Below are positions 30,720 through 46,806 of a stretch of DNA of 64,000 bases, piece by piece; within the stretch, counting starts at the first letter, position 1; every line of letters begins with the position of its first letter. Source of the DNA: Tsukamurella pulmonis. GTDB lineage: Bacteria; Actinomycetota; Actinomycetes; Mycobacteriales; Mycobacteriaceae. The notes under the pieces are model-generated. The model was given only the letters and a program-made list of their open reading frames with translations, had not been told where the DNA came from and did not search any database. Position numbers and translations under genes: made by a program. The DNA lies in contig NZ_FNLF01000002.1 of the NCBI RefSeq assembly GCF_900103175.1, forward strand, positions 682,001-746,000, given 5' to 3'.

Positions 30720-31388
30720 GTGCTGTTCGCCGAGGTCGTCGCCGTGTCCACCGAGGTAGCGGGCACGCGCTCGCGTACCGCGAAGATCACGGCGTTGGCC
30801 GCGGTCATCCGCGCCGCCGGGCCCGCCGACGTGCGTCCGGTCGTCGCCTGGCTCTCGGGCGAGCTCCTGCAGGGGCGACTGGGTACCGGCTGGCGCACGC
30901 TCGCGCGCACCGCCCCGGCGCTCACGCCCGCGGCGGAACCGGAGTTGACGATCGAGGAGGTCATCACCGCGCTCGATGAGTTGGCCGGCACCTCCGGCGC
31001 GGGCTCCGTCGCCCGGCGGGACGCCGTCCTCACCGCGCTGTTCGGGCGCGCGACAGCGGCGGAGCAGCGCTTCCTCGTCGGGCTCATCACGGGCGAGGTC
31101 CGGCAGGGCGCGCTCGCGGGGGTTGTCACCGACGCGGTGGCCCGCGCCGCAGAGGTCCCGCTGGAGACGGTGCGTCGCGCGGCGATGCTCTCCGGCTCGC
31201 TGCCGGACACCGCCGCGGCCGCCCTGCGCGGCGGCGCCGACGAGCTCGCGGGCTTCGGCCTCGAGGTGCTGCGGGGCGTCTCCCCGATGCTGGCCTCCCC
31301 GGCGGAGGACGTCGCTTCCGCGCTGGCCGACCTGGGGCCGGACGTGAGCGTCGAGTACAAGCTCGACGGTGCCACCTGCGGTTTGTGA
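30720..31388 (+). pseudogene. ligB: ATP-dependent DNA ligase LigB, N-terminal fragment (interrupted by element)
   Basis: This is the first 218 residues of a LigB-type ATP-dependent DNA ligase plus four element-encoded residues (TCGL) before a TGA. It contains the N-terminal DNA-binding domain and ends with VEYKLDGA, whose lysine forms the ligase-AMP intermediate (motif I). The rest of the adenylation domain, motifs III-VI and the OB-fold lie after the inserted element at 46807-47670. Joining the two across the GGTGCC core gives KLDGARIQVHR in frame, a protein of about 505 aa (507 in M. tuberculosis Rv3062). Alone this fragment cannot ligate DNA. Confidence 0.92.
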
Positions 31389-31399
31389 CTCATGTAGTC
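31368..31399. other. Attachment site attL of the element
   Basis: Core GGTGCC (31368-31373) is preceded by ligB coding sequence and followed by element DNA. The arm TGACTCATGTAGTC (31386-31399) is the exact inverted copy of the arm in attR. Confidence 0.8.
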
Positions 31400-31461
31400 G
31401 GGGCGGGGCTGACCTGCGAGTATGTCAGAGTTTGCGTCGGCCGTGACGTGCCGTCGCGAGG

Positions 31462-31914
31462 CTACTGCACGTAGAAACCTTGCTCGCGCAGGCGGCGTTT
31501 CCGGAGGGCACGCGCGGAGAGCTCCCGGCGCAACGTGGCGGCGTCGCGGGGGTCCCCGTCCCGTCGGCTCTGGGCCGTTTTCAGCGCGTGGTGCCGGTCG
31601 CATAGCAACTGGAGGTTCGAGGGCCGGTTGTCGCCGCCGTCGGCGATCTCCGTGATGTGGTCGACCTGGTGCGCCGGTGCGCCGCACTCGCGGCACACGT
31701 GCCAGTCGCGCTCGCGGATGTGGTCCTTCTCGGCCGTCGTGAGCGGCTTGATCCGGCGGCGTCGGGCGCGCTGGTTGGCGTCGAGGTTCTCCACCACGGG
31801 GTGCTGCTCGCACCGGTAGTCACGGCCTCGGTGCTCGACGGCGCGCCGGGGGCACCCCTGCGCCATGTTCTCGGGGTTGCGCCAACTACAGGTCTTTGGT
31901 GCCCGGCCGGTCAC
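31462..31914 (-). CDS. HNH endonuclease
   Basis: This is a 150-aa protein with a complete zinc-supported HNH fold: Cys74-x2-Cys77, then VDH (Asp85-His86), Asn100 and Cys105-x2-His108-His109. Phage proteins of this kind often lie next to terminase genes and are needed for cos cleavage and packaging in several HNH-dependent phages. The GTG start at 31914 overlaps the previous stop (GTGA). It is the last gene of the leftward late-like operon that starts with the small terminase, which favours a packaging role over a homing endonuclease. Confidence 0.85.
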   Translation of the reverse strand: MTGRAPKTCSWRNPENMAQGCPRRAVEHRGRDYRCEQHPVVENLDANQRARRRRIKPLTTAEKDHIRERDWHVCRECGAPAHQVDHITEIADGGDNRPSNLQLLCDRHHALKTAQSRRDGDPRDAATLRRELSARALRKRRLREQGFYVQ

Positions 31915-32195
31915 TGGGCCACCGCCTCGGATCGGTCGACGAGCCACGCGCTGAGCCGAGCAACGGCCTCGTCGTGGTCGAGCTGCTCGTCCCAACGCAC
32001 GAGGGCGGTGAGGCCGTTGGCGGGGTCGCCGTCGGCGTCGATCGCGTTGCCGTGCTCGTCGGCGAGGAACACCTCGGTGTGCTGGGCGGTGTAGAAGTCG
32101 GCGCACAGCACCGCGTAGTGCTGGCCGTCGTCGGCCCGGTAGAGCTTGGTCACCGGGCACCACCAATCGAGATCCGCGACGTGCTGCATCGTCAT
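31911..32195 (-). CDS. Small phage-type protein of unknown function
   Basis: This is a 94-aa acidic protein (WWCPVTKLYRADDGQHYAVLCADFY...). No known domain was recognised. It overlaps the tail gene by ATGA and the HNH gene by GTGA, so it is firmly part of that operon. Aromatic-rich N-terminal strands suggest a compact alpha/beta fold; nothing more can be said. Confidence 0.65.
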   Translation of the reverse strand: MTMQHVADLDWWCPVTKLYRADDGQHYAVLCADFYTAQHTEVFLADEHGNAIDADGDPANGLTALVRWDEQLDHDEAVARLSAWLVDRSEAVAQ

Positions 32196-34204
32196 GCTCC
32201 TGTCTTCGTGAGGATGAACCCGACACCGGCCGCGCCGGTACCGCCTGCGCCGTGCGGGGCTAGGTAGGCGCCGCCTTCGCCGCCACCGGCACCACCACCG
32301 CCGGGGAATCCGCCGTTACCGCCCTTGCCGCCGCCGGGGTTGCCGACGTTCCCGCCACCGCCGCGACCACCGCCACCGCCGGAGCCGCCGCACTTGGTCT
32401 TGGTGGTCGTGGGGACGTTCTGGCCGTTCTGCCCGGCGCCGCCTGTGCCGGTGCCGGGGTTGCCGCCGGTGGCGAGGGCTGTGCTCGTGCCTGCGGTCGG
32501 CGGTGTCGAGTTGTCTTGGTTGGCGCCGTCGCCGCCGTCGCCGGGTGCGGACGTGGTGTAGGCGTATCCGATGTCGCCCGGCTGCGCGATGCCGTTGCGG
32601 CCCGGAGCCGCGACGACGAGGCTGCCGAACGAGGACGGCGTCCCGTTGCTCGCGCCGATCGTGATGGTCACGGACGAGGGGACGTCGGCGGGGTCGAGGC
32701 GCTCGGCGAGGAACCCGCCGCCGCGACCGCCCTTGCGGGTGCCGTTGCCGGGCTGCCCGTTCTCGCCCGCGCCGATCATGACGGGGATGCACTCGGTGAG
32801 GTTCGCGGGCTTGTTCCAGGTTGTCGTGCTCGTGACGGTCTGAACGGTGTAGCCGTTCTCGATGGCGACCTTGATCGCGGCGATGGTGTCCTGTGCCTGC
32901 TGCGCGTTGCTGCCGCTCGGTGTGCCGGTGCCGCGCCACCCGTTCACGAGGCCCTGCACGACGTTGGTGATGTCGCCGAGAGCGTTGTTCGCCGAGCTCT
33001 GCGCCGTGACCGCCTTCGTGTCGGCCGTGATCGCGGTCGCGTTGGCGGTGTCGGCGGTCTGGCGAAGGCCCGCGACGTCGTCGAAGAGGTCCGCGAGGCC
33101 CGCGCCGACGACGGGGATACCCCGGATCGCCTGCACGATCTTCTCCAGGATCTGCTGCGCGAAGTTGCGCACGCCGTCGAGCGCGCCCTTCAGGCCGTCG
33201 TCGAGCGTGGGGAAGATCCCGGACCCGACGGTGCCGCCGGAGAGGATCGTCTTCAACTGCCCGGCCCAGGACTGGAGGTCGGCGATCGTGGTGCCGACCT
33301 TGCCAGTGAGCCGGTCGAAGAAGTCGCCGATCTTCGCGACCACGGCGGCGATCCCGCTGCCGAGGTCGCCAAGCGCGGAGACCAGGCCCGCGACCATGCG
33401 CTGGGGCAGGTTGCCGTACTTCGTGACGCTCAGGTCATCCCAGTTGATCGTGCCGCCGGTGACCGTGGCGGCCACCTCGACCTGCACGCGGATCTTCGTC
33501 GCCCCGGCCGGGACGGTGTACGTGCCGAGCAGACCGGTCCACGCCTGCGCGCCGGACGGGCTGTCGATCTGGGCGATGACCTTCTCCTCGACGACCGACT
33601 CGGTGTCGTCGTAGGCCACGGCCGAGAGCTTGAACGCGCCGGTGCCCCCACCGGTGAGCATCGACCAGGTGACGAAGCCGCCGATGTCGAACTTCTGCTC
33701 CGGCGCGCAGAGCACGACGTTCGAGAGCAGCACGCGGCGCGTGCCGTTGCCGGTCGTCTGCGCCGACCCGGCCGACGTGCGGCCGATGGTGGGGTTGAAG
33801 GTCCAACCCTCGGTCTCTTCGATCGGCATGGTGCCGTCGAAACCGCCGTTCTCCAGCAGGTTCGGGCTGGCCTCGCCGATGTGCGAGAGCGGGATGAGGG
33901 GCAGGCGCCACGGCTCGATGATGCCGGTCGCGAACCGGCGGATCGTCCCCACCACGGTCTGGATCGCGTTGAGGGCCGGATCGGTGCCGACGTACTCGCC
34001 CGCGATGGCCGCGCGCAGGTCGTCGAAGTCGAACATCTCCTGCCAGTGCTCCAGGTCGAACCCGAACATCGCGGCGATCTGACCGGCGATCTTCAGGACC
34101 TCGTCGGGCGAGCTGATGTCCCGCTTCAGTGCGAGCTGGCCGCCCGCGTCGAGTAGCTCCCCCGGCGTGCGCGGGTTGGCGGCGTGGACGTCGAACGGAG
34201 CCAT
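32192..34204 (-). CDS. Phage minor-tail/tail-tip protein with glycine-rich C-terminus
   Basis: This is a 670-aa structural-type protein. Residues 1-100 resemble the N-terminal region of actinophage minor tail proteins. About 110-260 look like a carbohydrate-binding jelly roll (NLLENGGFDG... GWTFNPTIGR ... INWDDLSVTKYG). A helical, Ala/Thr-rich linker (about 260-430) follows, and the last 130 residues are Gly-rich repeats ending GTGAAGVGFILTKTG. Such proteins sit at the tail tip of phages infecting mycolate-containing hosts and contact the cell envelope. No tape measure or tail-tube gene is present, so the protein must be used with another phage's virion or be a relic. Confidence 0.75.
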   Translation of the reverse strand: MAPFDVHAANPRTPGELLDAGGQLALKRDISSPDEVLKIAGQIAAMFGFDLEHWQEMFDFDDLRAAIAGEYVGTDPALNAIQTVVGTIRRFATGIIEPWRLPLIPLSHIGEASPNLLENGGFDGTMPIEETEGWTFNPTIGRTSAGSAQTTGNGTRRVLLSNVVLCAPEQKFDIGGFVTWSMLTGGGTGAFKLSAVAYDDTESVVEEKVIAQIDSPSGAQAWTGLLGTYTVPAGATKIRVQVEVAATVTGGTINWDDLSVTKYGNLPQRMVAGLVSALGDLGSGIAAVVAKIGDFFDRLTGKVGTTIADLQSWAGQLKTILSGGTVGSGIFPTLDDGLKGALDGVRNFAQQILEKIVQAIRGIPVVGAGLADLFDDVAGLRQTADTANATAITADTKAVTAQSSANNALGDITNVVQGLVNGWRGTGTPSGSNAQQAQDTIAAIKVAIENGYTVQTVTSTTTWNKPANLTECIPVMIGAGENGQPGNGTRKGGRGGGFLAERLDPADVPSSVTITIGASNGTPSSFGSLVVAAPGRNGIAQPGDIGYAYTTSAPGDGGDGANQDNSTPPTAGTSTALATGGNPGTGTGGAGQNGQNVPTTTKTKCGGSGGGGGRGGGGNVGNPGGGKGGNGGFPGGGGAGGGEGGAYLAPHGAGGTGAAGVGFILTKTGA

Positions 34205-34298
34205 GTGCGGGGATGCCTAACTACGCGATGGACCTCCCCGGTCCCGGGCGGGTGCCCGGCGCTTGCGTCCATGATCCCACGCCCGGTCAAAACTCCGC

Positions 34299-34631
34299 TC
34301 AGGCATGGAACCCGAAACCCCTTGTGGTGCTTCGCTTGGCGTCATTCCTGACGTCTCCCCGCGTGGGGCCGGACCCGATGAACGGCGGCGGGTTACGGCG
34401 TGTCCGCGTGGTCCGGTCGCGCAGGTGATCGCCGCGCACGATCACGAGCGGGCGGGGCGCGTCCTCGTCGTCGTCCATGCCGAGATCCGTCTCAACGGGC
34501 ATCGAATCGGAGCCGAGCTCGTACGTCGGCCCGTCGTCGAGGTGGTCGGCGTCGGGGTCCTCCCCGGAATCCCCGACGCCGACCGTGACCGCGAGGACCT
34601 CGCGGCCAAGAATCTCCAGGCCGAACCTCAT
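34299..34631 (-). CDS. Small phage-type hypothetical protein
   Basis: This is a 110-aa protein (MRFGLEILGREVLAVTVGVGD...), with an acidic middle and basic C-terminus. It overlaps the upstream gene by ATGA. Short proteins of this style often precede minor tail genes in actinophages. Function unknown. The 94-nt gap to the tail gene has no other gene. Confidence 0.6.
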   Translation of the reverse strand: MRFGLEILGREVLAVTVGVGDSGEDPDADHLDDGPTYELGSDSMPVETDLGMDDDEDAPRPLVIVRGDHLRDRTTRTRRNPPPFIGSGPTRGDVRNDAKRSTTRGFGFHA

Positions 34632-35665
34632 ACGGCCACCCCGCCTCGCGCGGCCGTCATCGCGGCGCGGATCGCCGCCGTGGCGGCCTCCGCGTCGTGG
34701 CGCCGTTGCTCCCGGCGTAGACGGGCGTCTCGTAGCTCGATCTCGTCCAGCTCGTCGGCGATCCGTGCGCGGGTGGCCTCGTCTACGCGGAGGGCTTCCT
34801 CTGCGCGGGCCGCCTCCCGGGCGGCGCGGAGCTCCGGCGTGGGGTCCGGGTCGCAGAACCCCCACCCGCTGGCGAAGTCGACACGCGCCCACCAACCGCT
34901 GGTGGGCCACGGCTCCGCGCGGCGGGAGGCGTGGCCGGTGCCGCACGGCTGCCGTATGAACTCGGCCTCGTCGAGCAACTCCGGTGGCACGGGGTCAGCG
35001 GCGCTCATCCGGTAGTGCGCGCGATAGCAGTCCTCCCGGAGGCACCGGATGCACTCGACGCCGCCGGGCACCGTGTCGCCGTCGACTACGCGGGTCGTGA
35101 CGTGCACCGTGCGCGCCGTGAGCTCGTGGCCGCGTCGGCACGCCGCCGGAACGCGCACGAGCGGGTCAACAATCGGGAACGGCCCCGCCGCGACGTGCGC
35201 GTGGTCGCGAGCCTGTGCCATGAGTGCCTCCTGTTCGTCCTGCCGGTTCTGCTCTGCCAGCTCGCCCCGCTCGCGCTCCTGCTGGGGGCGGATCTTCGCG
35301 GCCTCGCGGGTCGCGCGCTTCGCTGCCCGCGCGGTTGCGCTCTCGGCCGTCTGGGCCTTGCGCTCACGGGCGCGCACTGCGGCGATCTCCGCGCGCGACT
35401 TGATGCCCTGCGCCCGCCGGGCGGCCCGGTCCTTCTCCCGCTGGGTGGCCCGCCGTGCGTCGATGTAGGTGGCCCACTCGTCCGGGGTCATCGACTCCCG
35501 TTTGCGTTCGACGGCGCGGCGCTGCGCCTCCGCTGCGCAGGCGCGGCACCGGTACTGCCGGAACGAACCGTCCGCGTTGCGGTTGATCCGCGTGTTCAGC
35601 TCGGTGAACTCGTGGCCGTGCTTGCAGTGCGTCGGCCGCTCCCGCGTGGTGCCGAGCGTGGTCAT
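34628..35665 (-). CDS. Protein with two zinc-binding CxxGH...CxxC modules and a basic coiled coil
   Basis: This is a 345-aa protein. The first module (CKHGH... CRACAAEAQRR) is at about residues 13-45, and a related second module (CRRGHEL... CIRCLRE) is near 205-240. Between them lies a long Arg/Glu/Ala-rich helix. The C-x2-G-H-x(20)-C-x2-C pattern is seen in DNA-binding or HNH-associated phage proteins. No complete HNH motif is visible, so a nucleic-acid-binding role is inferred only. It overlaps both neighbours by 4 nt. Confidence 0.65.
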   Translation of the reverse strand: MTTLGTTRERPTHCKHGHEFTELNTRINRNADGSFRQYRCRACAAEAQRRAVERKRESMTPDEWATYIDARRATQREKDRAARRAQGIKSRAEIAAVRARERKAQTAESATARAAKRATREAAKIRPQQERERGELAEQNRQDEQEALMAQARDHAHVAAGPFPIVDPLVRVPAACRRGHELTARTVHVTTRVVDGDTVPGGVECIRCLREDCYRAHYRMSAADPVPPELLDEAEFIRQPCGTGHASRRAEPWPTSGWWARVDFASGWGFCDPDPTPELRAAREAARAEEALRVDEATRARIADELDEIELRDARLRREQRRHDAEAATAAIRAAMTAARGGVAV

Positions 35666-35994
35666 GCGGCGACGGCGCGCGGGACGTAGCTGAAGAACCG
35701 CCGGTGCGGCCAGAGGCGCCGCTCGATCTCGGCACGGTGCTCGACCCGGCGTAGCGCGGCATGGGGCCACACGAACTCGCTCGGCGCGAACGGCCGGAAC
35801 CCGTCGCTGTCCTCGCCCGCGAAGGGATTGAGCACCCCACCGCGCTCCAGGTCATCCGGGCTCAACCCCAACGTCTCCAGGACCGACTCCAGCTCGTCCT
35901 CGAAGGCGGGGAGCGGGGCCGCCGGTGCGGTGCGGGTGGCCCGCTCGGGGCGGGGCGGCGCCTCGTGCTGCGCGCGCTTGATCCGACGCCCCAT
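35662..35994 (-). CDS. Small phage-type protein after the small terminase
   Basis: This is a 110-aa protein with a basic start (MGRRIKRAQHEAPPRPERA), an acidic centre (DELESVLETLGLSPDDLERGG) and a Trp/Arg-rich end (ERRLWPHRRFFSYVP). It overlaps the small-terminase stop in a TAATG junction. The location suggests a packaging or morphogenesis helper; there is no recognisable domain. Confidence 0.6.
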   Translation of the reverse strand: MGRRIKRAQHEAPPRPERATRTAPAAPLPAFEDELESVLETLGLSPDDLERGGVLNPFAGEDSDGFRPFAPSEFVWPHAALRRVEHRAEIERRLWPHRRFFSYVPRAVAA

Positions 35995-36503
35995 TACGTG
36001 TTCCTCATCCGTCGACCGCCCGCGCTGCTGTGCTTCGGTGCGGGGCGCGGCATGGCGACGACGTTGCCGCCGTCCGTGCCGGTGGCGCGGGGCTTGTACT
36101 CGCCCCTGAAACCCTTCGGAGTGCCCGGCTTGGGTCCCGTGGTGCTGGTCGCGGGCTCGATCCCGCTCGTGGCGGCGAGGCGCCGATCCAGGGTCGCGAT
36201 GATCTTCCCGAAGTCCTGCACGAGCCCCCGGTGTAGTGCGACGGCCGGGTTGGCCCTCGTGTCGCCGGTGACGGCCGACTTGACCAGCGGGCCGTTGCGC
36301 TCGATGTCCTTCTCCAGGATCAGGATCTCGTCGGCGATGACGGCAAGGCGGTCGATGAACGCGCGGTCGGCGTCGTCCAGCTCGAACCCGTCCTCGCCCC
36401 GCTCGTCGAGCTCGTCGTTGAGCCGCTCGACCTCCGCGTCGTAGTGCGCGCGGAGCTGTGCGCTCGTGACCTTCGCGGGCATCTTGCGCCGGGCGGCTGC
36501 CAT
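35994..36503 (-). CDS. Phage terminase small subunit, P27-like
   Basis: This is a 169-aa protein. The central helix block (residues 45-115) follows the P27 small-terminase pattern: FIDRLAVIADEILILEKDIERNGPLV, TGDTRANPAV, then FGKIIATLDRRLAAT. Small terminases recognise the DNA packaging site. No large terminase is encoded nearby, which is typical of satellites that redirect a helper's packaging motor. The ATG has a GGGAGA ribosome-binding site. It is the first gene of the leftward operon to 31462. The family call is by pattern and moderately certain. Confidence 0.62.
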   Translation of the reverse strand: MAAARRKMPAKVTSAQLRAHYDAEVERLNDELDERGEDGFELDDADRAFIDRLAVIADEILILEKDIERNGPLVKSAVTGDTRANPAVALHRGLVQDFGKIIATLDRRLAATSGIEPATSTTGPKPGTPKGFRGEYKPRATGTDGGNVVAMPRPAPKHSSAGGRRMRNT

Positions 36504-36544
36504 GTCGTCTCCCGTGGTCGTGCCCGCGTGGGGCGAAATGAGTG

Positions 36545-36606: not shown

Positions 36607-36664
36607 GCATTCAGTAGAGCACGGGGTGTCAAATGTTCAGACGACGAATCAGACTGTGATGCAA

Positions 36665-36804: not shown

Positions 36805-36996
36805 ATGAGCGAGATCACTGAGACCGTCGTCGGCGAGTGCACGGAGTGCGGCGGGCCCCTCGTCAAGCGCGTGACGAAGATCGGCAAGGGGTACGGCAGC
36901 GACGGTTTCAGCCGGATCAAGCGTGCGATCTACTGCCGCAAGGGCTGTATCGACCGGACGATGACGCCGGAGGACATTGAACGCTACGGCGCGTAG
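36805..36996 (+). CDS. Small zinc-ribbon protein
   Basis: This is a 63-aa protein with Cys12-x2-Cys15 and Cys44-x3-Cys48, a zinc-ribbon pattern, and a basic middle (KRVTKIGKGYGSDGFSRIKR). One of the few rightward genes in the element. Its last 13 nt overlap the end of the PIN gene. Function unknown; phage genomes carry many such small putative regulators. Confidence 0.55.
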   Translation: MSEITETVVGECTECGGPLVKRVTKIGKGYGSDGFSRIKRAIYCRKGCIDRTMTPEDIERYGA

Positions 36997-37874
36997 CCGG
37001 GACGTGGTTCGATCTGCTCCGGCGGGACGGTGCGGCCGATGCCGAACACGCGCCAATGATTGCCGTCATACCCCGGGAGCGCCGGTAGGTCCGGGCACAG
37101 TTGCATCGTCGCGTAGATAGTGTCCTCCGGTAGGACGATGTCGCCGGTCGAGCGGAGAACTACCCCCGAATCGGGCGGTAGCTTGATGTAGGCGACCTCG
37201 GGCGATGCATAGTGCGGTCGGGTGGTGAAGCCGCGATTGAGGACGTTATCCCGGACCCACGCGAGGTCCCGGCGGAATGCCTTCAGCGTCTCGGGGACGA
37301 CGACGTAGGGCAACAGCTCGTGCGCATTGGGTTGCTCCAGCACCGTGACGAAGGACGAGTAGGCCGCGAAGATCCCCCTGTTGCCCTCGGTCTCGATCTG
37401 GGCGAACGATTGCTCGCCTGAACCTTCTAGGAATCCCTCGCCCCACTCGTGGTGGAAATCGAGCGCGGCCAGAGCGTCGACCGGCTTGCGCACATCGAGG
37501 CCGGGGTACTCGATCGCCAAGACAGCCTTGTCCCCGCTCACGAGGATCGCCGCCTGTGCGTCTTGGAACAGGGCCACGAGGAAGTTGTCGTCCGGGTCGG
37601 TGCACACGTGCGGGGTCTCGTTCTCGGGCCGATCCTCCACCATGTCGGCGAGAAGCGTGAGGGCGTCGACGAAGACGCGGACGTCGTCGAGGGTGAGCCA
37701 CCGGCGGAACTTCTCCCGCGCGAGGCGTGTCTCCAGCTCGTCAAGCAGGTGCGGCGACACCACGAGCCGGATGCGGCCCTGTCGGGCGAGTTCCACAAGC
37801 TGCGCGCACGTCCCGCTGGGGCTGATAGCTGCGCTGATGTAGGTGTTCGTGTCCAGCACGAATGTGATCGCCAA
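36984..37874 (-). CDS. PIN-domain toxin-like ribonuclease with C-terminal extension
   Basis: This is a 296-aa protein. Residues 1-140 form a PIN domain: FVLDTNTYISAAIS with the first catalytic Asp (residue 8), SPHLLDELE, TDPDDNFLVALFQDAQAAILVSGDKAVL with the later acidic residues. About 150 extra C-terminal residues of unknown fold make it twice the usual VapC-like length. PIN domains cut RNA with bound Mg or Mn. The TTG start lies 12 nt after the stop of a small upstream gene, the usual arrangement for toxin-antitoxin pairs. Confidence 0.72.
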   Translation of the reverse strand: MAITFVLDTNTYISAAISPSGTCAQLVELARQGRIRLVVSPHLLDELETRLAREKFRRWLTLDDVRVFVDALTLLADMVEDRPENETPHVCTDPDDNFLVALFQDAQAAILVSGDKAVLAIEYPGLDVRKPVDALAALDFHHEWGEGFLEGSGEQSFAQIETEGNRGIFAAYSSFVTVLEQPNAHELLPYVVVPETLKAFRRDLAWVRDNVLNRGFTTRPHYASPEVAYIKLPPDSGVVLRSTGDIVLPEDTIYATMQLCPDLPALPGYDGNHWRVFGIGRTVPPEQIEPRPGYAP

Positions 37875-38632: not shown

Positions 38633-38837
38633 ACGAACCAATCCTGACAGCACGCTGGGGGCTCCCTCGTGGCCGTGGGGGAGGGGCCCCACCCCCCGGG
38701 TGTCGGCTCGTCCGTCGTCCTCCGTGCTGGCGTCCGCACTGCCACGCCCTCACGTCCACGCTGAGCGATCGGCACGCCTTCGTCGCCTCCGTGTCCGTCT
38801 GGCAGCCCTTGATGGCTCACGGTGGCGATTACGGGGG

Positions 38838-39079
38838 TGACTTAGATGTGACTTAGAAGTGACCTAGATGGGAAACGTGCTCTGAGCTGGAATGACCTAG
38901 ATGACTTAGGTGACTTAGGTGGAAAGCTTCCCATATAGAGATATTCCCTCTTTTCGTCTCCCCTTATGCCCCTCGCGTGTATAGCGGAGACTTTCCGTCT
39001 AAGTCACCTCAGTCTCGTAAGTCATCGCAGCTCAGGCCGTGTTTTGCATCTAGGTCATGTCTAAGTCACATCTAGGTCA
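38838..39079. other. Iteron-type replication origin of the element
   Basis: Two mirror-image arrays of the 11-bp unit TGACYTAGRTG flank an A/T-rich centre. Left, direct: 38838, 38849, 38860 (contiguous), then 38893, 38902, 38911. Right, inverted: 38996 and 39014 (imperfect), then 39047, 39058, 39069 (contiguous). Outer and inner array midpoints both centre on about 38958. GGAAAG (38921-38926) and CTTTCC (38991-38996) add a further dyad. This resembles SaPI-type origins bound by the element's own Rep. The likely initiator is the primase/helicase at 40033. Confidence 0.72.
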
Positions 39080-39143
39080 GGGCTCCGGGTTAGGGACCCC
39101 TATGTGTGTGTTCACGCTAAGCCCTATTGCTATTCCACACACC

Positions 39144-39297: not shown

Positions 39298-39843
39298 TTA
39301 CTCGGCTGCTCGGCCCCGGAGTAGGGCCATGATCTCCATGAGCCGGGGGAGCGTCACGTCTTCCATTTGCTGTGCGAGTCCCCGGGCTCGCTCGGGGCTG
39401 ATGCTTGCGGGCAGTGCGCCGGAGATAGGGGCCTCGAACTCGGGGCCGGATTCCTGGATCACTCGGAACCCCATCGCGAGACTCTCCAGGAATCCGGCGA
39501 GGGTATCGGCGCCGTCGTCGGCCGTTTCGCGATCTATCGCCGCCGTGCGCTTGCGCTTCTGGGCGGCTGTAGCGGTCGGCATGTCCTCGGCCCAGGCGAG
39601 GCGGTCGGCCTGTCGGACGTAGCTCTCCTCGTGGGCACTCCAGAATCGGTCGTGCATCCACTCGTCCCCGGCAGGGACAGGAGCGGGCGCCGTAACGTTA
39701 CGGCTGTCCGTGACGTGATGAGTAGTCGCAACGTTACGGTTGCGGTATGCCTTCTGTCTGCACGCCGTCGAGCAATAGCGGGCGTCGGCCCGGCCGTAGA
39801 ACTCCGTGCCGCACTGTGTGCATGTGCGCTGTGTCGCTGCCAT
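39298..39843 (-). CDS. Zinc-finger protein with an operator array (putative element regulator)
   Basis: This is a 181-aa protein. The N-terminus has CTQCGTEFYGRADARYCSTACRQKAYR, a treble-clef-type zinc finger (C-x2-C-x10-YC-x3-C) seen in DNA-binding phage proteins. The remainder is helical and acidic, ending LPRLMEIMALLRGRA. The ATG at 39843 was chosen over the upstream ATG at 39915, which would run through the operator repeats. Copies of CGTAACGTTACG lie just before and inside its 5' end, suggesting autoregulation. Function inferred. Confidence 0.55.
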   Translation of the reverse strand: MAATQRTCTQCGTEFYGRADARYCSTACRQKAYRNRNVATTHHVTDSRNVTAPAPVPAGDEWMHDRFWSAHEESYVRQADRLAWAEDMPTATAAQKRKRTAAIDRETADDGADTLAGFLESLAMGFRVIQESGPEFEAPISGALPASISPERARGLAQQMEDVTLPRLMEIMALLRGRAAE

Positions 39844-39932
39844 AGCTGTAACGATACAGATAAACGTAACGTTACGCAAATATGTCTCGTTACAAATATC
39901 TGCGCCGTCGCACACGTACTCGTGACGTTGCG
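39691..39932. repeat. Cluster of CGTAACGTTACG palindromes
   Basis: Exact copies are at 39691-39702 and 39865-39876. One-mismatch CGCAACGTTACG is at 39727-39738, and weaker forms are near 39848-39857 and 39921-39932. The cluster spans the start and promoter of the zinc-finger gene and looks like a multi-site operator. The gene-free part 39844-40032 holds these sites and a terminator. Confidence 0.6.
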
Positions 39933-40032: not shown

Positions 40033-42657
40033 CTACTCGCTCTCCGTGCTGGCGCGCAGCACAATCGGAGTCTCGTAGACGGTGATGGTCTTCCGCTCCG
40101 TCGTCCCGTCGGGCTTGCGAACGGTCACCTTGCGGGACATCTGTTTGCCGTACAGGGCGCGCATGCGGCCCTTGAAATCGTCTCGCTCGATCTCGCGCAG
40201 CTCGCGGGGCCAGACGCTCCGCTGGCCGTCGAAATACGCCCACGCGAAGTCGGCCGTGACCCGCTTGGACATGGGTGCGCTCGTGTCGACCTCGAACGTG
40301 CTCGTGGCCCATCGGCGGAACGCGTTGAGCTGGCCCATAGCCTCATCTCGGAACACGTCCACGACGTCCGGGACGTCCTCGTCCAGCCCCTCGCGGAGGT
40401 AGTCGCCGAGCCCCTCCACAAGCCACGCGAACAGAGCCACAAGAGCCTCCGGCACCGACTTCAGCTCGTCCTTGTCGGTCCCCTTCGGCACCGTCTGCTC
40501 GAACGGGAGCACGAGCAAGCGCCGGTCTAGGGCCTCGTCGGCGTCCTCAATCGTCGGCATGGAGTTGGTCGCGATGATCGGCAGGAACATCGGGGTAGCG
40601 GTCACCATGTGATTCGAGTACAGCGCGCGCGCCGTGACGGAGTCATTGCCCGCCATGCGCTTCAGCACGTCGGCGTGCAGCCGGTTCCGGTTGCCGACCT
40701 CGGACGCGAAGATCGCGCGCCTCGGGAACACGGCGAGCAGCTCCGGGCTGGGCCCGCCGTCCCGCTTGGCCCGGAACAGCGCGTTCGGCTCGAAGGTCGT
40801 GGCGTAGTCGCCGAACACGGCCTGCACGCCCTCGATCAACGTGCTCTTGCCGGTGGATGTCCCGCCCTTCAGGAAGACGATGCGCCGTCGGGGGTTGCCG
40901 CCGACGAGCGCGTATCCGAGCACCTTGCGCACGTACCGCCGGATCGCCGGATCGGGGAGGAACGTGTCGAGATACTCGGTGAACAGTGGGTGCGTGGCGC
41001 CGGGCTCGTACGGAACGGCGGTGCTCGACAGGATCATGTCCTCGGGCGTGCCCTTGCGGAGCACCACGGCCCCGCTGGTCCAGTCCAGGACGCCGTTCGC
41101 CACTCCGAGAGTCCGCTTCTCGCGGTCGAACTGCTCCGGGTTGATCTCGTCCGGGTGGTCCGTGTGCGCGCTCTCCAGCCCCGCGCGTCGGTTCTTCAGG
41201 TCGCCCGACTTCACGCCGTATGTATGGACGGAACAGGCCTGCTTGCGGAGGCTCTCGGCCCGCTCGGTACGGCCCTCGTTCTCCTCGTCCTGGGCGTCCT
41301 TCTCCAGCAAGGCGGCCGTGTGCTTGTAACTCTCGATCGTCGCGACCGACCAGAACCGGCGCTGCACCGCGCGGGGGTCCAGGCGGGTCAATGCCCCGCG
41401 CTGGGTGTCCCAGTAGCACCAGTCATTACCGCCGAGCACCGGCCGGAGGTTCGACCCGACGGCCGCGTTGAACACGAGCCCTCGCCCCATGTCGCTGAGG
41501 TCGTACTCCCGGGTGTCGATCGGCGAGATTCGGGAGGCGACGATCTCCAGCATGCGTTCTTGGAACACCGCGAGGTCCACCTCGAAGCTCTGGGCGTCGA
41601 GGCCGATAGGGGAGAGCTGCCGGAGGCCGTTGTCGACCTCGGCGCGCAGCTTCGCGATGGCGCCGGTGAGCGTCCGGCTCCACTCGCTCTCTGCCGTCGC
41701 GAGGTCGCGCCGGGCCTCCCCGTCCTTCGCGCCGAGCACCTCACTGAAGAACGCGTTGTGGGCCAGCTCGACGGCCGCCTTCAGGCCGTGGTGGCCCTCG
41801 GCCGCGAGGAAGATGATGTGGTTCAGCGGCTCAACGATCGCCTGGTGCGCGCCGACGTCGACCGAGTCGGCGAGACCCTCGGCAGCGCGACGGAGCACGG
41901 ACGTCATCGGCTCCCGATAGCCGGGGATGTTCTCGGCCAGCCAGGCCAGCGCGGCCGTGTCGTCGGCGAAATCGACCACGTCGAGCTGCACCCGCTCGGT
42001 GGTGTCGCGTAGGCCGTCGAGCCACCGCTCAGGCAGCCACGGGAGCGCCTCTAGCTTGGGCTCGGCGCATGGCTTCAGGTCGGGCCCGTACCACTGATAG
42101 ACCCTCGGCGGGTCGACGTCGTGCCCCTTGTCCCAACTCACAACGCTGGGCGCGACGACGGCGTATCGGTGCCCCGGCTGGATCACGTCGACGTCGGGGA
42201 GGCGGTCTTTCAGGCGGGTCCCCGCTGGCACGCGGTAGAGGTGAATCCCGCTCGCCGTCTCGGGGGCGCGTGAGGTGGACATGTAGGTGTCGGGCAGCGG
42301 CCCCCACTGCGCCACGAGCTCGCGCATCGTCTCGCACCCGCGCTTTGTCTGGTGCTCGTCCTCGTAGTCGTCGACATCGAGGCCGATGACGCCGTCCGAG
42401 AGTAGGAGACCGATATTGCCTCGGTGACCCTCGGGAAAGACGTAGGAAGCACGGGTGCGCAGGTTCTTCCAGCCAGTGACGTCCTTCGGCGGCGGGGACT
42501 TTCGGCCGCTCGGCAGGTGGATCTTTCGGCCGATGCTGGTACGATCGGAGACGTTCCTCGACTGGACATGCTCGTCAAGGCCCCCGCCTCGCGCGGGGGC
42601 TTTGTCGTTGGCGGGTGTCCCGGCCGGAGAAGTCTTGGGGTGCGGCTGAATAGCCAT
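40033..42657 (-). CDS. Bifunctional primase-polymerase / D5-like SF3 helicase (replication initiator)
   Basis: This is an 874-aa replication protein. The N-terminal 200 residues look like a Prim-Pol domain (GWKNLRTRASYVFPEGHRGNIGLLLSDG, IGLDVDDY with the metal-binding Asp pair). The C-terminal 350 residues form a P4/D5-type SF3 helicase with Walker A GGTSTGKST near residue 600, an acidic Walker-B-like segment (AIFASEVGNRNRLH), sensor FLPIIATNS and DEALDRRLLVLPF. It can plausibly melt the iteron origin at 38838-39079 and start element replication. The gene is single and flanked by terminators. Confidence 0.85.
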   Translation of the reverse strand: MAIQPHPKTSPAGTPANDKAPARGGGLDEHVQSRNVSDRTSIGRKIHLPSGRKSPPPKDVTGWKNLRTRASYVFPEGHRGNIGLLLSDGVIGLDVDDYEDEHQTKRGCETMRELVAQWGPLPDTYMSTSRAPETASGIHLYRVPAGTRLKDRLPDVDVIQPGHRYAVVAPSVVSWDKGHDVDPPRVYQWYGPDLKPCAEPKLEALPWLPERWLDGLRDTTERVQLDVVDFADDTAALAWLAENIPGYREPMTSVLRRAAEGLADSVDVGAHQAIVEPLNHIIFLAAEGHHGLKAAVELAHNAFFSEVLGAKDGEARRDLATAESEWSRTLTGAIAKLRAEVDNGLRQLSPIGLDAQSFEVDLAVFQERMLEIVASRISPIDTREYDLSDMGRGLVFNAAVGSNLRPVLGGNDWCYWDTQRGALTRLDPRAVQRRFWSVATIESYKHTAALLEKDAQDEENEGRTERAESLRKQACSVHTYGVKSGDLKNRRAGLESAHTDHPDEINPEQFDREKRTLGVANGVLDWTSGAVVLRKGTPEDMILSSTAVPYEPGATHPLFTEYLDTFLPDPAIRRYVRKVLGYALVGGNPRRRIVFLKGGTSTGKSTLIEGVQAVFGDYATTFEPNALFRAKRDGGPSPELLAVFPRRAIFASEVGNRNRLHADVLKRMAGNDSVTARALYSNHMVTATPMFLPIIATNSMPTIEDADEALDRRLLVLPFEQTVPKGTDKDELKSVPEALVALFAWLVEGLGDYLREGLDEDVPDVVDVFRDEAMGQLNAFRRWATSTFEVDTSAPMSKRVTADFAWAYFDGQRSVWPRELREIERDDFKGRMRALYGKQMSRKVTVRKPDGTTERKTITVYETPIVLRASTESE
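42577..42603. other. Terminator-like hairpin inside the primase 5' end
   Basis: An 11-bp stem (AAGGCCCCCGC / GCGGGGGCTTT, one G-U, loop CTCGC) lies 54 nt into the primase frame on the minus strand. It could attenuate primase transcription, or stop rightward transcription. Confidence 0.5.
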
Positions 42658-42717
42658 CGTGAATCCGTTCCTGTTCGACTGTGACTATTTGGTGGGCCGA
42701 CGGATGATCTCCAAGAC

Positions 42718-42752
42718 GTGGGCCGCATCGGGTGCTAACCGATGCGGCCCAC
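42718..42752 (-). terminator. Terminator after the small-gene operon
   Basis: A perfect 14-bp stem (GTGGGCCGCATCGG and complement, loop GTGCTAA) lies 26 nt past the stop at 42779 and before the primase gene. Confidence 0.7.
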
Positions 42753-42778
42753 GATACACCTGTGCAGAGTGAAAGTGC

Positions 42779-42985
42779 CTATGCTACTTGGGCTTTGGAA
42801 GACTTGACGCCAACCGGAACGTCCTGCTCGGGCGTCACGAAGGCGAGCGCGACGTCCTCGGCCACCTCGCCGACGATGCGCTTGCACGTGCGACTCCAGT
42901 GCGCCACGCCGTCGGTGCGGGTCTCGACCCACACGCGCCCGCCGACGGGCTCGAAACATCTGCCGCATGTCGCCGTGGTGATCAC
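42779..42985 (-). CDS. Small zinc-binding protein of the element
   Basis: This is a 68-aa protein starting with GTG, which overlaps the upstream stop (GTGA). It has Cys7-x2-Cys10 near the start (TATCGRCFEPV) and one later Cys, so a partial zinc site is possible. Function unknown. Confidence 0.5.
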   Translation of the reverse strand: MITTATCGRCFEPVGGRVWVETRTDGVAHWSRTCKRIVGEVAEDVALAFVTPEQDVPVGVKSSKAQVA

Positions 42986-43290
42986 TTGGCGCCCCCGCCG
43001 AACTCGCGCCGCCACTCGGCCTCGATGGCGTTCGGCTGATCGTGCAGCGGGTCACGCGGCGCACCGTTGCGGCTGCCGTGCTCCTGGCCCTCGTACTCCA
43101 CGGTGCCCGCGTCGATCGCGGCCCGGATGCGCGCCCGGCGCTGGGTCGCGAGCTGCTCGCGCTTGAAGTTCTCGGCCGTGCGCGTGCCGTCGACATGCTG
43201 GCCGAAACCGCGCCGATAGCCGTGGGACTGCTGGCGCTGCGCCTCGGTCTGCTCGCCGTTGAGATACTTGCCGAAACCGTTGTTGCTCAT
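42982..43290 (-). CDS. Small basic protein of unknown function
   Basis: This is a 102-aa hydrophilic, Arg/Gln/Gly-rich protein (MSNNGFGKYLNGEQTEAQRQQ...). No domain recognised. It lies 24 nt after the 43315 gene and overlaps the next gene, within the leftward early-type operon. Confidence 0.5.
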   Translation of the reverse strand: MSNNGFGKYLNGEQTEAQRQQSHGYRRGFGQHVDGTRTAENFKREQLATQRRARIRAAIDAGTVEYEGQEHGSRNGAPRDPLHDQPNAIEAEWRREFGGGAK

Positions 43291-43314
43291 GTGTTTCTCC
43301 GTTCTTTGAGTGGT

Positions 43315-44202
43315 CTACCGGCCGACGAGCAGGTCGGTGGTGGCGTCGTTCGCGTTGAGCTTTTCGAGCAGCTCGTCCACGCGGGCCCACGTGGACGCGA
43401 ACGAGACCTCCCCACCCTGCGCGAGGCGGTCGGGAGAGCCGCCGCGCACGAAGCCGAAGCCGGACGTTGTCGCCCGCCGGATGTAGTGCAGATCCTTCGC
43501 GATGCTCACCATCCGCTCGCGCAGGCCATCGCGCAGGCCCCACGCGATGACGGCCGACTGCCCGCGCCGGATCGCCACGTCCGCGCTGTCGACGCCTTCC
43601 AGCTCCCGCGCAACCTGGGCGGCGTCGGCGACGAGGGCCGCGAGGTCCTGGTGCGCAGCGGCCTCCAACTCCTTCTTCCGCGCCTTGATCTCCGAGCTGA
43701 GGCGGGCCGCCGTCATCGACCCCGCGAGGTACGCGCCATCCCGTGAGGCCTCGATGAGTCGGCCGGTGCCCGCGACCTCGGCGAGCTGCTCCGCAAGGTC
43801 CTCGGGAATGGCCTCGCGCTTGCGGCCCGCGTCGAGGGCGGCCTCCAGGATCGCGGTGCTGGTTTTGCCCGCCTCGCGCGGCTGAAGGCGGCTCGTGACG
43901 CGGCTACAGGAGCCAAGCTCGCGACGGAGGATCGGGCCCCAAATCGCCTCAGCGCTGCCGGTGAGCGCGTTCGTGAGCAGTGTGGGCCGGGCCTGCGGCT
44001 GCATGGCCTGCGCAGCCTGCGCGCTGAGGGTTGTCTCCCGCGCGATCTTCGCGGTGCGGTCCTCCAGGTTCTTCCGGTCGATCTTGTCATTGGTCTCACG
44101 GCTCGACGGGCTCGCGAAATGCTCGGGCATGAGGGTGGGCTCGTAGGTGAAACCGGGCGTCGTGTCGGTCGTGGTGATGCTGGGCGTGCTCTTGGTGGTC
44201 AT
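43315..44202 (-). CDS. Helical protein of unknown function
   Basis: This is a 295-aa protein dominated by Ala/Glu/Arg-rich helices. Likely coiled coils are at about residues 40-70 and 160-215 (ARLSSEIKARKKELEAAAHQDLAALV). The N-terminal 35 residues are Thr/Pro-rich and probably disordered. No enzymatic motif is visible. Position upstream of the replication gene suggests a DNA-metabolism or regulatory accessory role, which is only a guess. Confidence 0.55.
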   Translation of the reverse strand: MTTKSTPSITTTDTTPGFTYEPTLMPEHFASPSSRETNDKIDRKNLEDRTAKIARETTLSAQAAQAMQPQARPTLLTNALTGSAEAIWGPILRRELGSCSRVTSRLQPREAGKTSTAILEAALDAGRKREAIPEDLAEQLAEVAGTGRLIEASRDGAYLAGSMTAARLSSEIKARKKELEAAAHQDLAALVADAAQVARELEGVDSADVAIRRGQSAVIAWGLRDGLRERMVSIAKDLHYIRRATTSGFGFVRGGSPDRLAQGGEVSFASTWARVDELLEKLNANDATTDLLVGR

Positions 44203-44230
44203 GTGATTCTCCTAGGTAATGAAGTGGTGG

Positions 44231-44410
44231 TCAGCGGTGCAGCTGAATGGGTGAGTGCTCCAGTCGATGCAGCTCGGAGCGGGTGATGCGGCCCGCGTCG
44301 AGTAACAGGCGCTCGTCGGCGACGTCCGGCATGAAACCGGCGGCATACGTCTGGCGCACGCGGCGCTCGGCCGCGTCGAGCTGGTCGGTGGTGATGGTGC
44401 TGTGTTGCAT
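44231..44410 (-). CDS. Very small element protein
   Basis: This is a 59-aa frame, MQHSTITTDQLDAAERRVR... ending HSPIQLHR. It has an ATG start and codon use like its neighbours. It fits exactly between the genes at 43315 and 44514. Function unknown. The 103 nt upstream (44411-44513) contain no other gene. Confidence 0.4.
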   Translation of the reverse strand: MQHSTITTDQLDAAERRVRQTYAAGFMPDVADERLLLDAGRITRSELHRLEHSPIQLHR

Positions 44411-44513
44411 TTAGGACTCCTAAGTGGGGTCCTCCCCGGACCCTCGCCGGTGGCGACGAGGGGTGGAACAGGTGTGCAGGGTGGGCGGCACAGCAACCGC
44501 AGGTAGGTGGGTG

Positions 44514-44792
44514 TCAGGGTGTCGGTGCGGAATCCGGCTCGGCGAGCTCGTCGCGCCACAGCGTGACTGCGTCCGCGACCCGTGCGAGCAACGCGAATTT
44601 CACGACCTCCGACCTCACGCCCGGCGGCGGATCGTCCTCACGGACGACGATGACCAGGGCTAGTAGGTTGACCGCGAGCGATTGCGCAGCCTCGGTGTCC
44701 AGCGTCATCACCTGGTCGCCGAACTCGACCTCGATGAGGCCGACCGGGGTGATGCGGACGACGGGCACGATCTCGATGTCGCCGTGGCTCAC
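44514..44792 (-). CDS. Small element protein
   Basis: This is a 92-aa protein (GTG start overlapping the previous stop), with a beta-rich beginning (IEIVPVVRITPVGLIEVEFGDQVMTL) and a helical end. No family recognised. Confidence 0.45.
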   Translation of the reverse strand: MSHGDIEIVPVVRITPVGLIEVEFGDQVMTLDTEAAQSLAVNLLALVIVVREDDPPPGVRSEVVKFALLARVADAVTLWRDELAEPDSAPTP

Positions 44793-44932
44793 GCGGCGGC
44801 CTGCCGCGAGGTGGGGTGGCACACCGGCCGCGAGGCGAAGGCGGCCCGGATCATGGCGCGCTGCTCCGGCTTCAGCGGGGGCGCACCCTGGGCGGCCTTC
44901 GCACCGGCGGCGCGGATCTCGTCGCGGGTCAT
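44789..44932 (-). CDS. Very small element protein
   Basis: This is a 47-aa basic protein (MTRDEIRAAGAKAAQ...). It is linked by ATGA to the HTH gene upstream and by GTGA to the next gene, which strongly supports that it is translated. Function unknown. Confidence 0.42.
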   Translation of the reverse strand: MTRDEIRAAGAKAAQGAPPLKPEQRAMIRAAFASRPVCHPTSRQAAA

Positions 44933-45150
44933 GAGGGACCGCCGACTTTCAGGGATACGACCCAATCGTCGATGTCCTCCGGCGCGAAGTAGTGGCGGCC
45001 CGCGATCTCCAGGTGGGGCAACTCGCCCTCGTGGGTGGCCCGCTTGATCGCACGAAGGCCGACGGGCATACCGAGCGTGTCGCGCAGGTAGGCGTGGACG
45101 TTGCTGAATCCGCGCAGGTGGCGGGGCCCGGTGGCGGGCGGTGAGGGCAT
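44929..45150 (-). CDS. AlpA/excisionase-like small HTH protein
   Basis: This is a 73-aa protein with a MerR/AlpA-type winged helix: a DNA-binding helix region (GMPVGLRAIKRATHEGELPHLEIAGRHYFAPEDIDDWV), with the typical RxYF wing followed by an acidic D-x-W helix. Proteins of this type act as excisionases or as AlpA-like activators in satellites and prophages. It is the first gene of the leftward small-gene operon and next to the integrase gene. Confidence 0.62.
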   Translation of the reverse strand: MPSPPATGPRHLRGFSNVHAYLRDTLGMPVGLRAIKRATHEGELPHLEIAGRHYFAPEDIDDWVVSLKVGGPS

Positions 45151-45369
45151 AGCGGTCTCCTGTGGAAGAAGACCACCGCTTAGCCGGGGCGCGTGGCCCG
45201 CAGACTCTCGTACTTGCCGCTCAGCGTGTGCCGCACGGTATCCGATGGTGTCGGCTCGTTACCGACAAGAAGAACTGTATCGGATCGTTCTGCTCCGTGC
45301 CAGTGTGTGCGGCAAACTCCCAGTTCGGCGTGTGGCTCGGAATCTGTTGTGCTATGCCAGAATTGACGA
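45151..45369. promoter_or_regulatory. Promoter region of the small-gene operon
   Basis: A 219-nt gap between the integrase stop and the HTH gene. It contains nested dyads: TGTCGG/CCGACA (about 45250-45266) inside ATCCGAT/ATCGGAT (about 45240-45286). These may be operators for the leftward early promoter. No gene seen. Confidence 0.4.
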
Positions 45370-46760
45370 TCAAAGCCACTCGATGTCGACGCACTCGGGC
45401 TTGAATGTGCGGCGCACGCCCTTCATGGTCATCTTGTGAACCGTCACCCGCGCAAGGGATTTGATGAGTCGGGCGCGCGTATCCACGTGCAGACCGTTCG
45501 GGCCGTCCCACGCCGCGCGGATGTCGTCGGCGCGGAGCAACTCCGCAAGCTCCGGGTCGGCCGTCGCCGCGTCCAACTGCGCGTCGATCGTGTCGAGCTG
45601 GGCCCGGAGATCGGCCGTGATCTCGGTGAGTTGCGCGCCGGTGATCGCGCCGGAAGAGAACAAGCTCGCCGCCTCCCGGAGGCGCGCGTCGAGGGCCTCC
45701 CGTTGCCCGCTGAGAGCCCGCGTGTCGACCTCTGGGGCCGCGAGCAACTCCCGGGCGTCCGGCTGGCCCAGGCGGGCGCACACGGCCGCACTGACGTACT
45801 CGTCGAGGTCGACGGCGACCACGGACGCGCACCCCGCCGTGCGGGCAGCGGGACGGTAGACCGGCGTGGGATTGGTCCCGCTGCTCTTGGTGCACACCAT
45901 CGGGTCGCCGGTGAACGCGTCGATGTAGACGCCCGCGCCTTGCCAGCGGCGCTGATTCCCGGGGCTCACCCGGCGCGCGGGGTTGGCGAGCACGGCCCGC
46001 ACGGCGAGCAGCTCGTCCACGGTCACGATTGCGGGCCACTGCGCATCCGCGACCGGCTCGCCCTCCCGCTCGACCTTTCCCGCGTTGCGCCACCGGGAGA
46101 GCACGTTCCTCACGCCCGGGAGCGACCACTCGCGCCCACTGGAGGTGCGGATCTCGGCCGCGTTGAGCTCACGCCGGACGGCGCTGATCGTCTTCCCGGC
46201 CGTCACGTCGGCGATGGCCTGCCGGATGATCGCGGCCTCCCGCTCCCGGATCGTCATTCCGTCGCGCTCGTATCCGAACGGGCGCATCCCGCCCCGGTAC
46301 CCGCCCGCTGCGGCCGTCTGTGCCTTCTGGGCCTTGATCCGGGCCGTGGTGTGCTCGACCTCCTGCTGTGCCACGGCGCCGAGAATGCGCGCCGTCATCC
46401 GGCCCGACGGTGAGGCGAGATCCACGGGGCCGGACTGGACGGTGGCCACCTGCGCGCCGGTGCGCTCGACGATGTCGAGGAAGGGCTCCAGCTCAGTATT
46501 GCGCCGGTGTAGGCGGTCGGAGTGCCACGCGATGACCGCCGACGCTTCGCCGGACTCCAGCGCGGCCAGAGTGCGCTGGTACCCCGGCCGCTTCTTGCCC
46601 GAGTACGCCGAGATGTCGTTGTCAGATTCGACGCGCAGGACGGTCCAGCCGAGCCGCTCCGCGAGGGCGCGGCAATCCTCGGCCTGGCGCTCGACGCCGA
46701 GCCCCGCGCCTGCGCGGTCCTTACTGATGCGGGCGTAGATGATGGCGTTCGTGCTGCTCA
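45370..46760 (-). CDS. Large serine recombinase (integrase) of the element
   Basis: This is a 463-aa integrase. The resolvase catalytic domain (1-150) has the nucleophile Ser13 in IIYARISKDRAG, with SAYSGKKRPGYQ, AWHSDRLHRR and MTARILGAVAQQEVEHTTARIKA. A recombinase domain follows (GYRGGMRPFGYERDG... ISAVRRELNAAEIRTSSGREWSLPGVRNVLS), then a coiled-coil motif near 350-400. The zinc-ribbon region lacks the usual first CxxC pair (GVYIDAFTGDPMVC). ATG 46760 was chosen; an upstream frame would run into attR. Confidence 0.88.
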
Positions 46761-46770
46761 TGGCACCAAA

Positions 46771-46806
46771 GACTACATGAGTCATGACCAACTATTTGCT
46801 GGTGCC
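46771..46806. other. Attachment site attR of the element
   Basis: GACTACATGAGTCA (46771-46784) is the exact inverted copy of the attL arm. Core GGTGCC (46801-46806) joins the element to the rest of ligB. Confidence 0.8.

Follow-up and report, generated by a model that had tools for sequence, protein, structure and literature searches.

Phage-inducible chromosomal islands (PICIs) are recognized by an integrase whose att sites mark a defined locus, an AlpA or Stl-type regulator next to that integrase, a primase or rep gene with an iteron origin, the small terminase subunit (TerS) or another packaging gene without the large subunit (TerL), and excision, replication and packaging on induction by a helper. 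Among the candidate PICIs of Mycobacterium, one of the four that are drawn has a serine integrase (PMC10654092), and a survey of actinobacterial prophages takes many small elements to be satellites and notes that experiments are lagging behind (PMC10023795). Here we describe a 15.4-kb element with 20 predicted genes in the chromosome of Tsukamurella pulmonis, contained in the window, as we call the whole 64,000-nucleotide stretch analysed (contig NZ_FNLF01000002.1, positions 682,001 to 746,000). The element is very probably a satellite in nature, as an earlier reading made from the sequence alone (the sequence-only reading) had proposed; this is now supported by a compact, capsid-less layout in a second species, mosaic modules, purifying selection on the integrase and TerS genes, and a site like the cohesive ends (cos) of a phage group. 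Beyond that, it is probably a maintained PICI-like satellite with a helper-mimicking cos and its own receptor-binding fibre; formal PICI membership is not proven.

The element splits the gene for an ATP-dependent DNA ligase. It begins and ends with GGTGCC, and the ligase reading frame, which stops after ...KLDGATCGL on the left, is picked up again on the right at ...GARIQVHRL, so that the boundaries first proposed for it, 31368 and 46806, are exact. Just inside the ends lie inverted arms, GACTCATGTAGTC (from 31387) and GACTACATGAGTC (from 46771), as expected for the attP of a serine integrase. The insertion (31356-31388) falls at the KLDG motif of the ligase, and the host ligase should therefore be inactive while the element is resident. 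Across 16 Tsukamurella genomes this site is open in 13, occupied in two (G000 and G015) and without a close orthologue in one. Because G015 and T. tyrosinosolvens NCTC13231 are nearly one strain (99.995% identity over 20 kb), the element is present in two species, not three. A T. tyrosinosolvens record labelled 'plasmid 4' (NZ_LR134446.1, L033) contains the chromosomal ligase neighbourhood, is 99.995% identical over 20 kb to the 4.9-Mb G015 contig, and is apparently a mislabelled piece of chromosome. A plasmid or conjugative element was set aside, since no such genes were recognized among the predicted proteins and the 'plasmid 4' copy looks chromosomal.

Read on the minus strand from the right end, the order is integrase, AlpA-like helix-turn-helix (HTH) protein, small genes, a 295-residue protein, two small genes, primase-helicase, a zinc-finger-like protein, iteron origin, cos-like site, a 74-residue gene, PIN protein, TerS, genes 15-17, the 670-residue fibre, the DUF7572 protein and, near the left end, the HNH nuclease. 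Integrase and att sites thus occupy a defined locus, the primase gene is accompanied by an iteron origin, and TerS, itself weakly called by the curated libraries, stands without TerL. Library matches (for the integrase, Pfam Resolvase 2e-27 and Recombinase 1e-7, and PHROG integrase 7e-79) and repeat counts (CTAAGTCAC five times and TCTAGGTCA four times within 38800-39100) bear out the integrase, primase-helicase, iteron origin and HNH nuclease of the sequence-only reading; its AlpA-like HTH and TerS are present too, with library support that is weak and under the cut-off (for the HTH, Pfam HTH_17 0.0012 and NCBIfam excise 0.0074). This sub-threshold HTH adjoins the integrase; a divergent Stl-type repressor was not identified.

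The virion genes said to be missing were not found here either. When 19 of the 20 predicted proteins (all but gene 3, 47 residues) were scanned against Pfam and PHROGs, no match to large terminase, portal, capsid or lysis families was found, and a tape-measure name came up only once, weakly, for part of gene 18 (PHROG, 0.001). Compared in six frames with reference TerL, portal, major capsid and tape-measure proteins, the element likewise showed none. The set that marks capsid-forming PICIs (cf-PICIs), namely their own major capsid, portal, connectors and TerL, is not found in the element.

The compact, capsid-less layout, on whose conservation the satellite idea depended, recurs in T. tyrosinosolvens, where a copy at the same ligase site has 18 of the 20 genes in the same order. 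Ratios of nonsynonymous to synonymous divergence (dN/dS) were calculated with our own Nei-Gojobori script for 17 genes, with partial alignments for gene 3, gene 16 and the fibre tip. TerS is 98.8% identical between the copies (dS 0.18, dN/dS 0.046) and the integrase 97.5% (dS 0.32, dN/dS 0.072), with dS of 0.24-0.48 for four flanking genes between the two species. Genes 19 and 20 are 98% (84 of 94 codons of gene 19) and 89% identical, with dN/dS of 0.22 and 0.33, and the aligned parts of the 17 genes contain no internal stop codon. The co-linear copy and the low ratios of TerS and integrase argue for a compact element under maintenance and against the remnant of a recent deletion. Over 551 aligned codons the primase reaches only 44.5% identity, and the adjoining iterons switch along with it, from CTAAGTCAC/TCTAGGTCA in the window to GGTATCACC in T. 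tyrosinosolvens, with conserved flanking sequence. Such divergence between conserved flanks speaks for module exchange in a maintained element, not for decay, and the replication module has been exchanged as a unit. In T. tyrosinosolvens a 48-residue gene immediately precedes TerS, as a similar one does in L017; by eye, it is missing upstream of 36503 in the window.

The protein of gene 18, listed at first as a tail-tip protein, is a tail protein and, more specifically, a homologue of a receptor-binding central fibre: its residues 94-360 match the solved central fibre of the mycobacteriophage Douge (PDB 8zdo) with an E value of 4.6e-29. The Douge fibre, gp20, has been suggested to be the receptor-binding protein and shown to make the first contact with the cell (PMC13033339). 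Minor tail proteins of the phages Sukkupi and Fury, in each of which the gene is the fourth after the tape measure, share 54-57% identity with residues 5 to about 400 of gene 18, and a more distant relative (38.5%) occurs in the Tsukamurella phage TIN2. Between the two copies of the element, the docking half is 87% identical (residues 1-400, 84-92% in three blocks) and residues 401-670 are 48% identical over the 189 aligned codons; the C-terminal part, unlike the N-terminal half, is nearest to prophages of Mycobacterium abscessus and the Gordonia phage EMoore. Receptor-binding proteins typically combine a conserved dock with a swapped tip. Genes 18 and 19 follow the order of Giles gp25 and gp26, gp26 being the one matched. 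We lean, by a narrow margin, towards a fibre that is built into particles and sets their entry.

The cos-like site points to a group of possible helpers. Six phages of the Zierdtviridae (Sukkupi, Fury, Flapper, Kabluna, NadineRae and Outis, of four genera by their recorded taxonomy) have 30 identical positions at their genome ends, which served as consensus, in three common blocks, GGGGGT, CCCCTCCCCC and CGCCGCGTACTGTC; at 38646-38695 the element has GGGGGT...CCCCTCCCCC...CCCAGCGTGCTGTC. With equal spacings allowed everywhere, the six phages have no mismatch, the window has 3, T. tyrosinosolvens 4, a satellite of another Tsukamurella genome (G001) 5 and a remnant from another genus 2; the best background site has 6, both among 172 other loci (1.52 Mb, with some overlap) and among 30 random windows. 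A gapped form of the pattern has one match in the window and none in 100 shuffles; it matches five of 155 loci, representing three satellites, and five of 301 genomes of the family, three of these matches being the Tsukamurella satellites, where a reversed-pattern control matches one. Among viral contigs it has eight matches. Two are phages of the Zierdtviridae group with the full phage cos, and the other six were taken for chance, four after their genes had been read and two (L157 and L161) from the matched sequence alone. As in the phages, the site lies upstream of the TerS-HNH genes and in the same orientation; gp1 follows cos in the phages (in Outis it is annotated as TerS), and the HNH gene of Sukkupi precedes TerL. 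The top-listed phage relatives of the HNH nuclease, the N-terminal half of the fibre and the primase are Zierdtviridae that infect Gordonia. The element's length times four, 61.7 kb, is close to the 64-69 kb of the phages, a numerical remark only. We have good confidence in cos packaging by a Zierdtviridae-like helper, which would be a siphophage of Tsukamurella; a cos-like site that matches a phage group makes helper dependence concrete and the helper group nameable.

Two further loci bear cos sequences of this kind. The G001 satellite (L015:3329-10778), smaller at about 7.5 kb and beside tRNA-Ala, has a tyrosine-type integrase (by eye), an HTH gene, a primase/helicase and TerS, and its cos has CCCGCCGCGTACTG in common with the phages. 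Near tRNA-Thr in G021 (L197:18280-18350), a near-perfect Zierdtviridae cos stands beside an apparently truncated tyrosine integrase and seems to be what is left of a phage or satellite.

Several observations weigh against this account of the element. To admit the satellites, the gapped pattern had been loosened at three positions, and its block spacing was widened after a narrower scan had missed the window site. A search of 1.1 Mb with nhmmer and the phage cos profile did not report that site, giving E values of 3.4 for T. tyrosinosolvens and 0.52 for G001, its best match; a gapless 68-base matrix placed the site third within the window, and a 54-base one placed it first, yet within the range of three random windows. 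TerS is weak by the curated libraries, including Pfam Terminase_4 (0.001, below cut-off) and PHROG, and a comparison with 50,697 phage records gave it no match at E 0.01; it is therefore not the TerS of the helper group. The first 50 kb of TIN2 and TPA2 and the 16 genus genomes yielded no Zierdtviridae-type phage of Tsukamurella. Not every gene is under tight constraint: dN/dS is 0.82 for the primase, about 0.5 for genes 4, 6 and 7 and 0.43 for the fibre. Horizontal movement rests on mosaicism only, because both copies occupy one orthologous site. 

In favour of the account, no phage-type TerL was detected in the genome that carries the element: phrog_2 gave a best E value of 6.7e-5 and Sukkupi TerL no match, other TerL families not being searched. 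A resident helper was rejected accordingly. Scans of viral contigs for the integrase, TerS profile and fibre, and of genome contigs for TerS, confirmed nothing.

The TerS assignment gains from its relatives. TerS has no match in the PDB, and its single-sequence fold prediction is poor (pLDDT 63.6, pTM 0.37). A profile of six relatives finds 39 places in 37 of 397 Mycobacteriales genomes, and our gene caller recovered the TerS reading frame in 36 of the 38 stretches other than the window (not in L131 and L169). These stretches, of up to 20 kb, were searched with a restricted panel of reference proteins, part of it taken from the stretches themselves. TerL was detected in five of the 38 (L143, L172, L173, L174 and L181; that of L172 is a fragment at a contig end), which supports the assignment; in L181 TerL lies about 100 bases after TerS. 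Eight have a capsid gene without detected TerL (L124, L128, L129, L140, L141, L164, L167 and L176), five have a tape measure without it (L127, L130, L136, L142 and L171), and in 20 none of the three was detected; these absences are soft because contig ends cut some stretches (L171 starts 1 kb before TerS). No fibre relative was found among the 38. Visual inspection of 24 loci showed, in 12 of them, a following gene that overlaps the stop codon of TerS by 1 or 4 bases and, like gene 15, starts with a basic M-x-[RK]-[RK]; it is conceivable that this basic protein, translationally coupled to TerS, acts as an adaptor or packaging partner.

The tape-measure loci may possibly be tape-measure-carrying satellites of other Mycobacteriales, and related serine integrases occur in two of them (L127 and L142). 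The 11 open reading frames scanned in L130 gave one tape measure, one integrase, one excisionase-like protein and seven without a match; one of 310 residues, adjoining the tape measure, has a partial PHROG terminase-large-subunit match (E 1.8e-10, residues 1-140) and is not taken for a working TerL. With eight capsid and five tape-measure places lacking detected TerL, carrying one virion-tailoring gene may be common. We suggest, tentatively, a broad class of TerS satellites in the Mycobacteriales, each bringing one gene that re-equips the virion (capsid, tape measure or central fibre), the tail-gene forms letting the satellite set host recognition or penetration.

The anatomy of the T. pulmonis element suggests how such a satellite might work. 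The serine integrase would place it in the ligase gene, and the AlpA-like protein would probably direct its excision. On helper entry, the induced satellite would be replicated from the iterons by its primase-helicase; its own TerS and HNH nuclease, with the helper's TerL, would cut the helper-mimicking cos, and satellite DNA would be loaded into helper heads. The satellite would add its central fibre and the small tail partner to the helper particle, the conserved N-terminal half docking on the helper's tail tip and the variable C-terminal half contacting the host, so that particles from satellite-carrying cells would bear the satellite's choice of receptor.

Other explanations were weighed against this one. 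A primase, an HNH nuclease and a fibre that are all phage-like could belong to a defective prophage, a once complete siphophage now decaying after loss of the TerL-capsid-tail block. In Sukkupi the HNH gene is directly before TerL, which makes a deletion following this gene conceivable. Such an origin is very improbable. The second species has the same junctions and gene order, stop-free genes and purifying selection on integrase and TerS do not suit decay, and modules have been exchanged since the two copies diverged. A single deletion would have to join homologues of genes 18 and 20 that are far apart in Sukkupi, and TerS relatives occur in many stretches without detected TerL, with relatives of genes 15-16 after TerS in another genus (G158). 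Searches of the 16 genus genomes with primase, fibre and TerL revealed no full prophage with the backbone of the element; genes 18-19, and no other element gene, recur in two Tsukamurella prophage regions (G002:C65 and G013:C189), and neither a deletion scar nor decaying genes relative to a full prophage were seen.

If the element is a satellite, genes 18-19 might still be passengers at its end without a role in the particle. Element ends are a common location for cargo; genes 18, 19 and 20 are grouped there, and the overall dN/dS of the fibre is 0.43. We give this little credence: the Sukkupi homologues of genes 18 and 20 (gp45 and gp25) are far apart, so the two were probably not acquired as one block, and the fibre dock, gene 19 and gene 20 are all well conserved between the copies, the latter two at dN/dS of 0.22 and 0.33. 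Interference, with the gene 18 product as a poisoned part of the helper tail that lowers infectivity and brings no new receptor, is unlikely, albeit with precedents in the tail-targeting defences of PICIs and prophages (Tai, PMC11364771; PMC10884400) and in satellites whose homologues of helper proteins redirect assembly (Ccm, PMC8569155). The C-terminal half, however, resembles phage minor-tail tips and differs strongly between the copies, which a simple blocker would not need, and its DUF7572 partner is kept nearly unchanged.

The features of the element are listed in the table together with the tape-measure genes of the related loci. PADLOC gave no match for ten element proteins, and defence cargo was not retained as an explanation. 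Four copies of the palindrome CGTAACGTTACG or its variants, at 39691-39932 in and upstream of gene 10, are possibly an operator or a second replication site.

Table. Features of the satellite-like element in window coordinates, and tape-measure genes near TerS relatives in locus coordinates
Feature	Position	Strand	Remarks
Whole element	31368..46806	.	includes both GGTGCC repeats
attL core repeat GGTGCC	31368..31373	.	
Gene 20, HNH endonuclease	31462..31914	-	kind encoded beside TerL in Sukkupi; PHROG 3e-46
Gene 19, DUF7572 minor tail protein, 94 aa	31911..32195	-	
Gene 18, central-fibre (receptor-binding) minor tail protein, 670 aa	32192..34204	-	PHROG minor tail 2e-79
Gene 17, 110 aa	34299..34631	-	no assigned function
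Gene 16, 345 aa	34628..35665	-	weak HNH-endonuclease PHROG matches
Gene 15, basic protein, 110 aa	35662..35994	-	start overlaps TerS stop
Gene 14, TerS, 169 aa	35994..36503	-	
Gene 12, PIN-domain protein (TIGR00305)	36984..37874	-	possible cargo; no PADLOC match
Gene 11, 74 aa	37887..38111	-	96% identical in T. tyrosinosolvens
cos-like site, like Zierdtviridae genome ends	38646..38695	-	inferred cut adjoins 38649; weak by profile scans
Iteron origin	38838..39079	.	inverted arms of CTAAGTCAC/TCTAGGTCA repeats flanking AT-richer core
Gene 9, prim-pol / D5-type helicase, 874 aa	40033..42657	-	PHROG 6e-150
Gene 6, 295 aa	43315..44202	-	no assigned function
Gene 2, AlpA/excisionase-like HTH, 73 aa	44929..45150	-	sub-threshold matches
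Gene 1, large serine integrase, 471 aa	45370..46785	-	
attR core repeat GGTGCC	46801..46806	.	
Tape-measure genes near TerS	L127:5488-9135, L130:6457-9270, L136:6799-9660, L142:3545-7777, L171:3670-7293		PHROGs

Other satellites in this comparison alter or replace the head, or attach to the helper. A receptor-binding fibre of its own, if confirmed, would make this element a case of redesign at the particle's entry end; relatives with a tape measure would be further cases. A satellite of this kind could influence which cells the borrowed shell enters, which bears on the movement of satellites between host species, and the cos match, by making the helper group nameable, makes the idea testable. 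In the literature searched, which was largely without subscription papers and bioRxiv, we found no report of a satellite with a central fibre or a tape measure.

Known systems share parts of this design. The candidate PICIs of Mycobacterium, including phiRv1 and phiRv2, are likewise small integrated elements with a serine or tyrosine integrase and replication genes, but they are defined by an integrase together with a major capsid gene (PMC10654092), whereas the element has no capsid gene and carries a central fibre and an HNH nuclease. The PICI-like element (PLE) of Vibrio cholerae also has a large serine recombinase, the comparison being limited to that feature (PMC6002521); with PLE, one mycobacterial candidate PICI and phiRv1 all having such an enzyme, a satellite with a serine integrase is nothing unusual, contrary to the sequence-only reading. 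Classical PICIs and cos-type SaPIs such as SaPIbov5 are integrated too, use cos-type packaging and have taken a helper-virion gene, which in SaPIbov5 is the capsid homologue Ccm (PMC8569155) and here a tail central fibre, and regulation probably differs. The Douge fibre is the phage's own (8zdo, PMC13033339), whereas gene 18 would be a satellite's. MiniFlayer and MulchRoom, satellites of Streptomyces phages, are likewise actinobacterial, and MiniFlayer has a tail-fibre protein; unlike the element, both encode capsid and packaging genes, and the MiniFlayer fibre attaches to the neck of the helper, whereas gene 18 is a homologue of a siphophage central fibre (PMC10690885). The cf-PICIs, as described in the same paper, similarly mix virion parts of their own with those of the helper, yet they make their own heads and steal tails (PMC10690885), whereas the T. 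pulmonis element, with no head and a tail-tip part of its own, would represent the converse division of labour.

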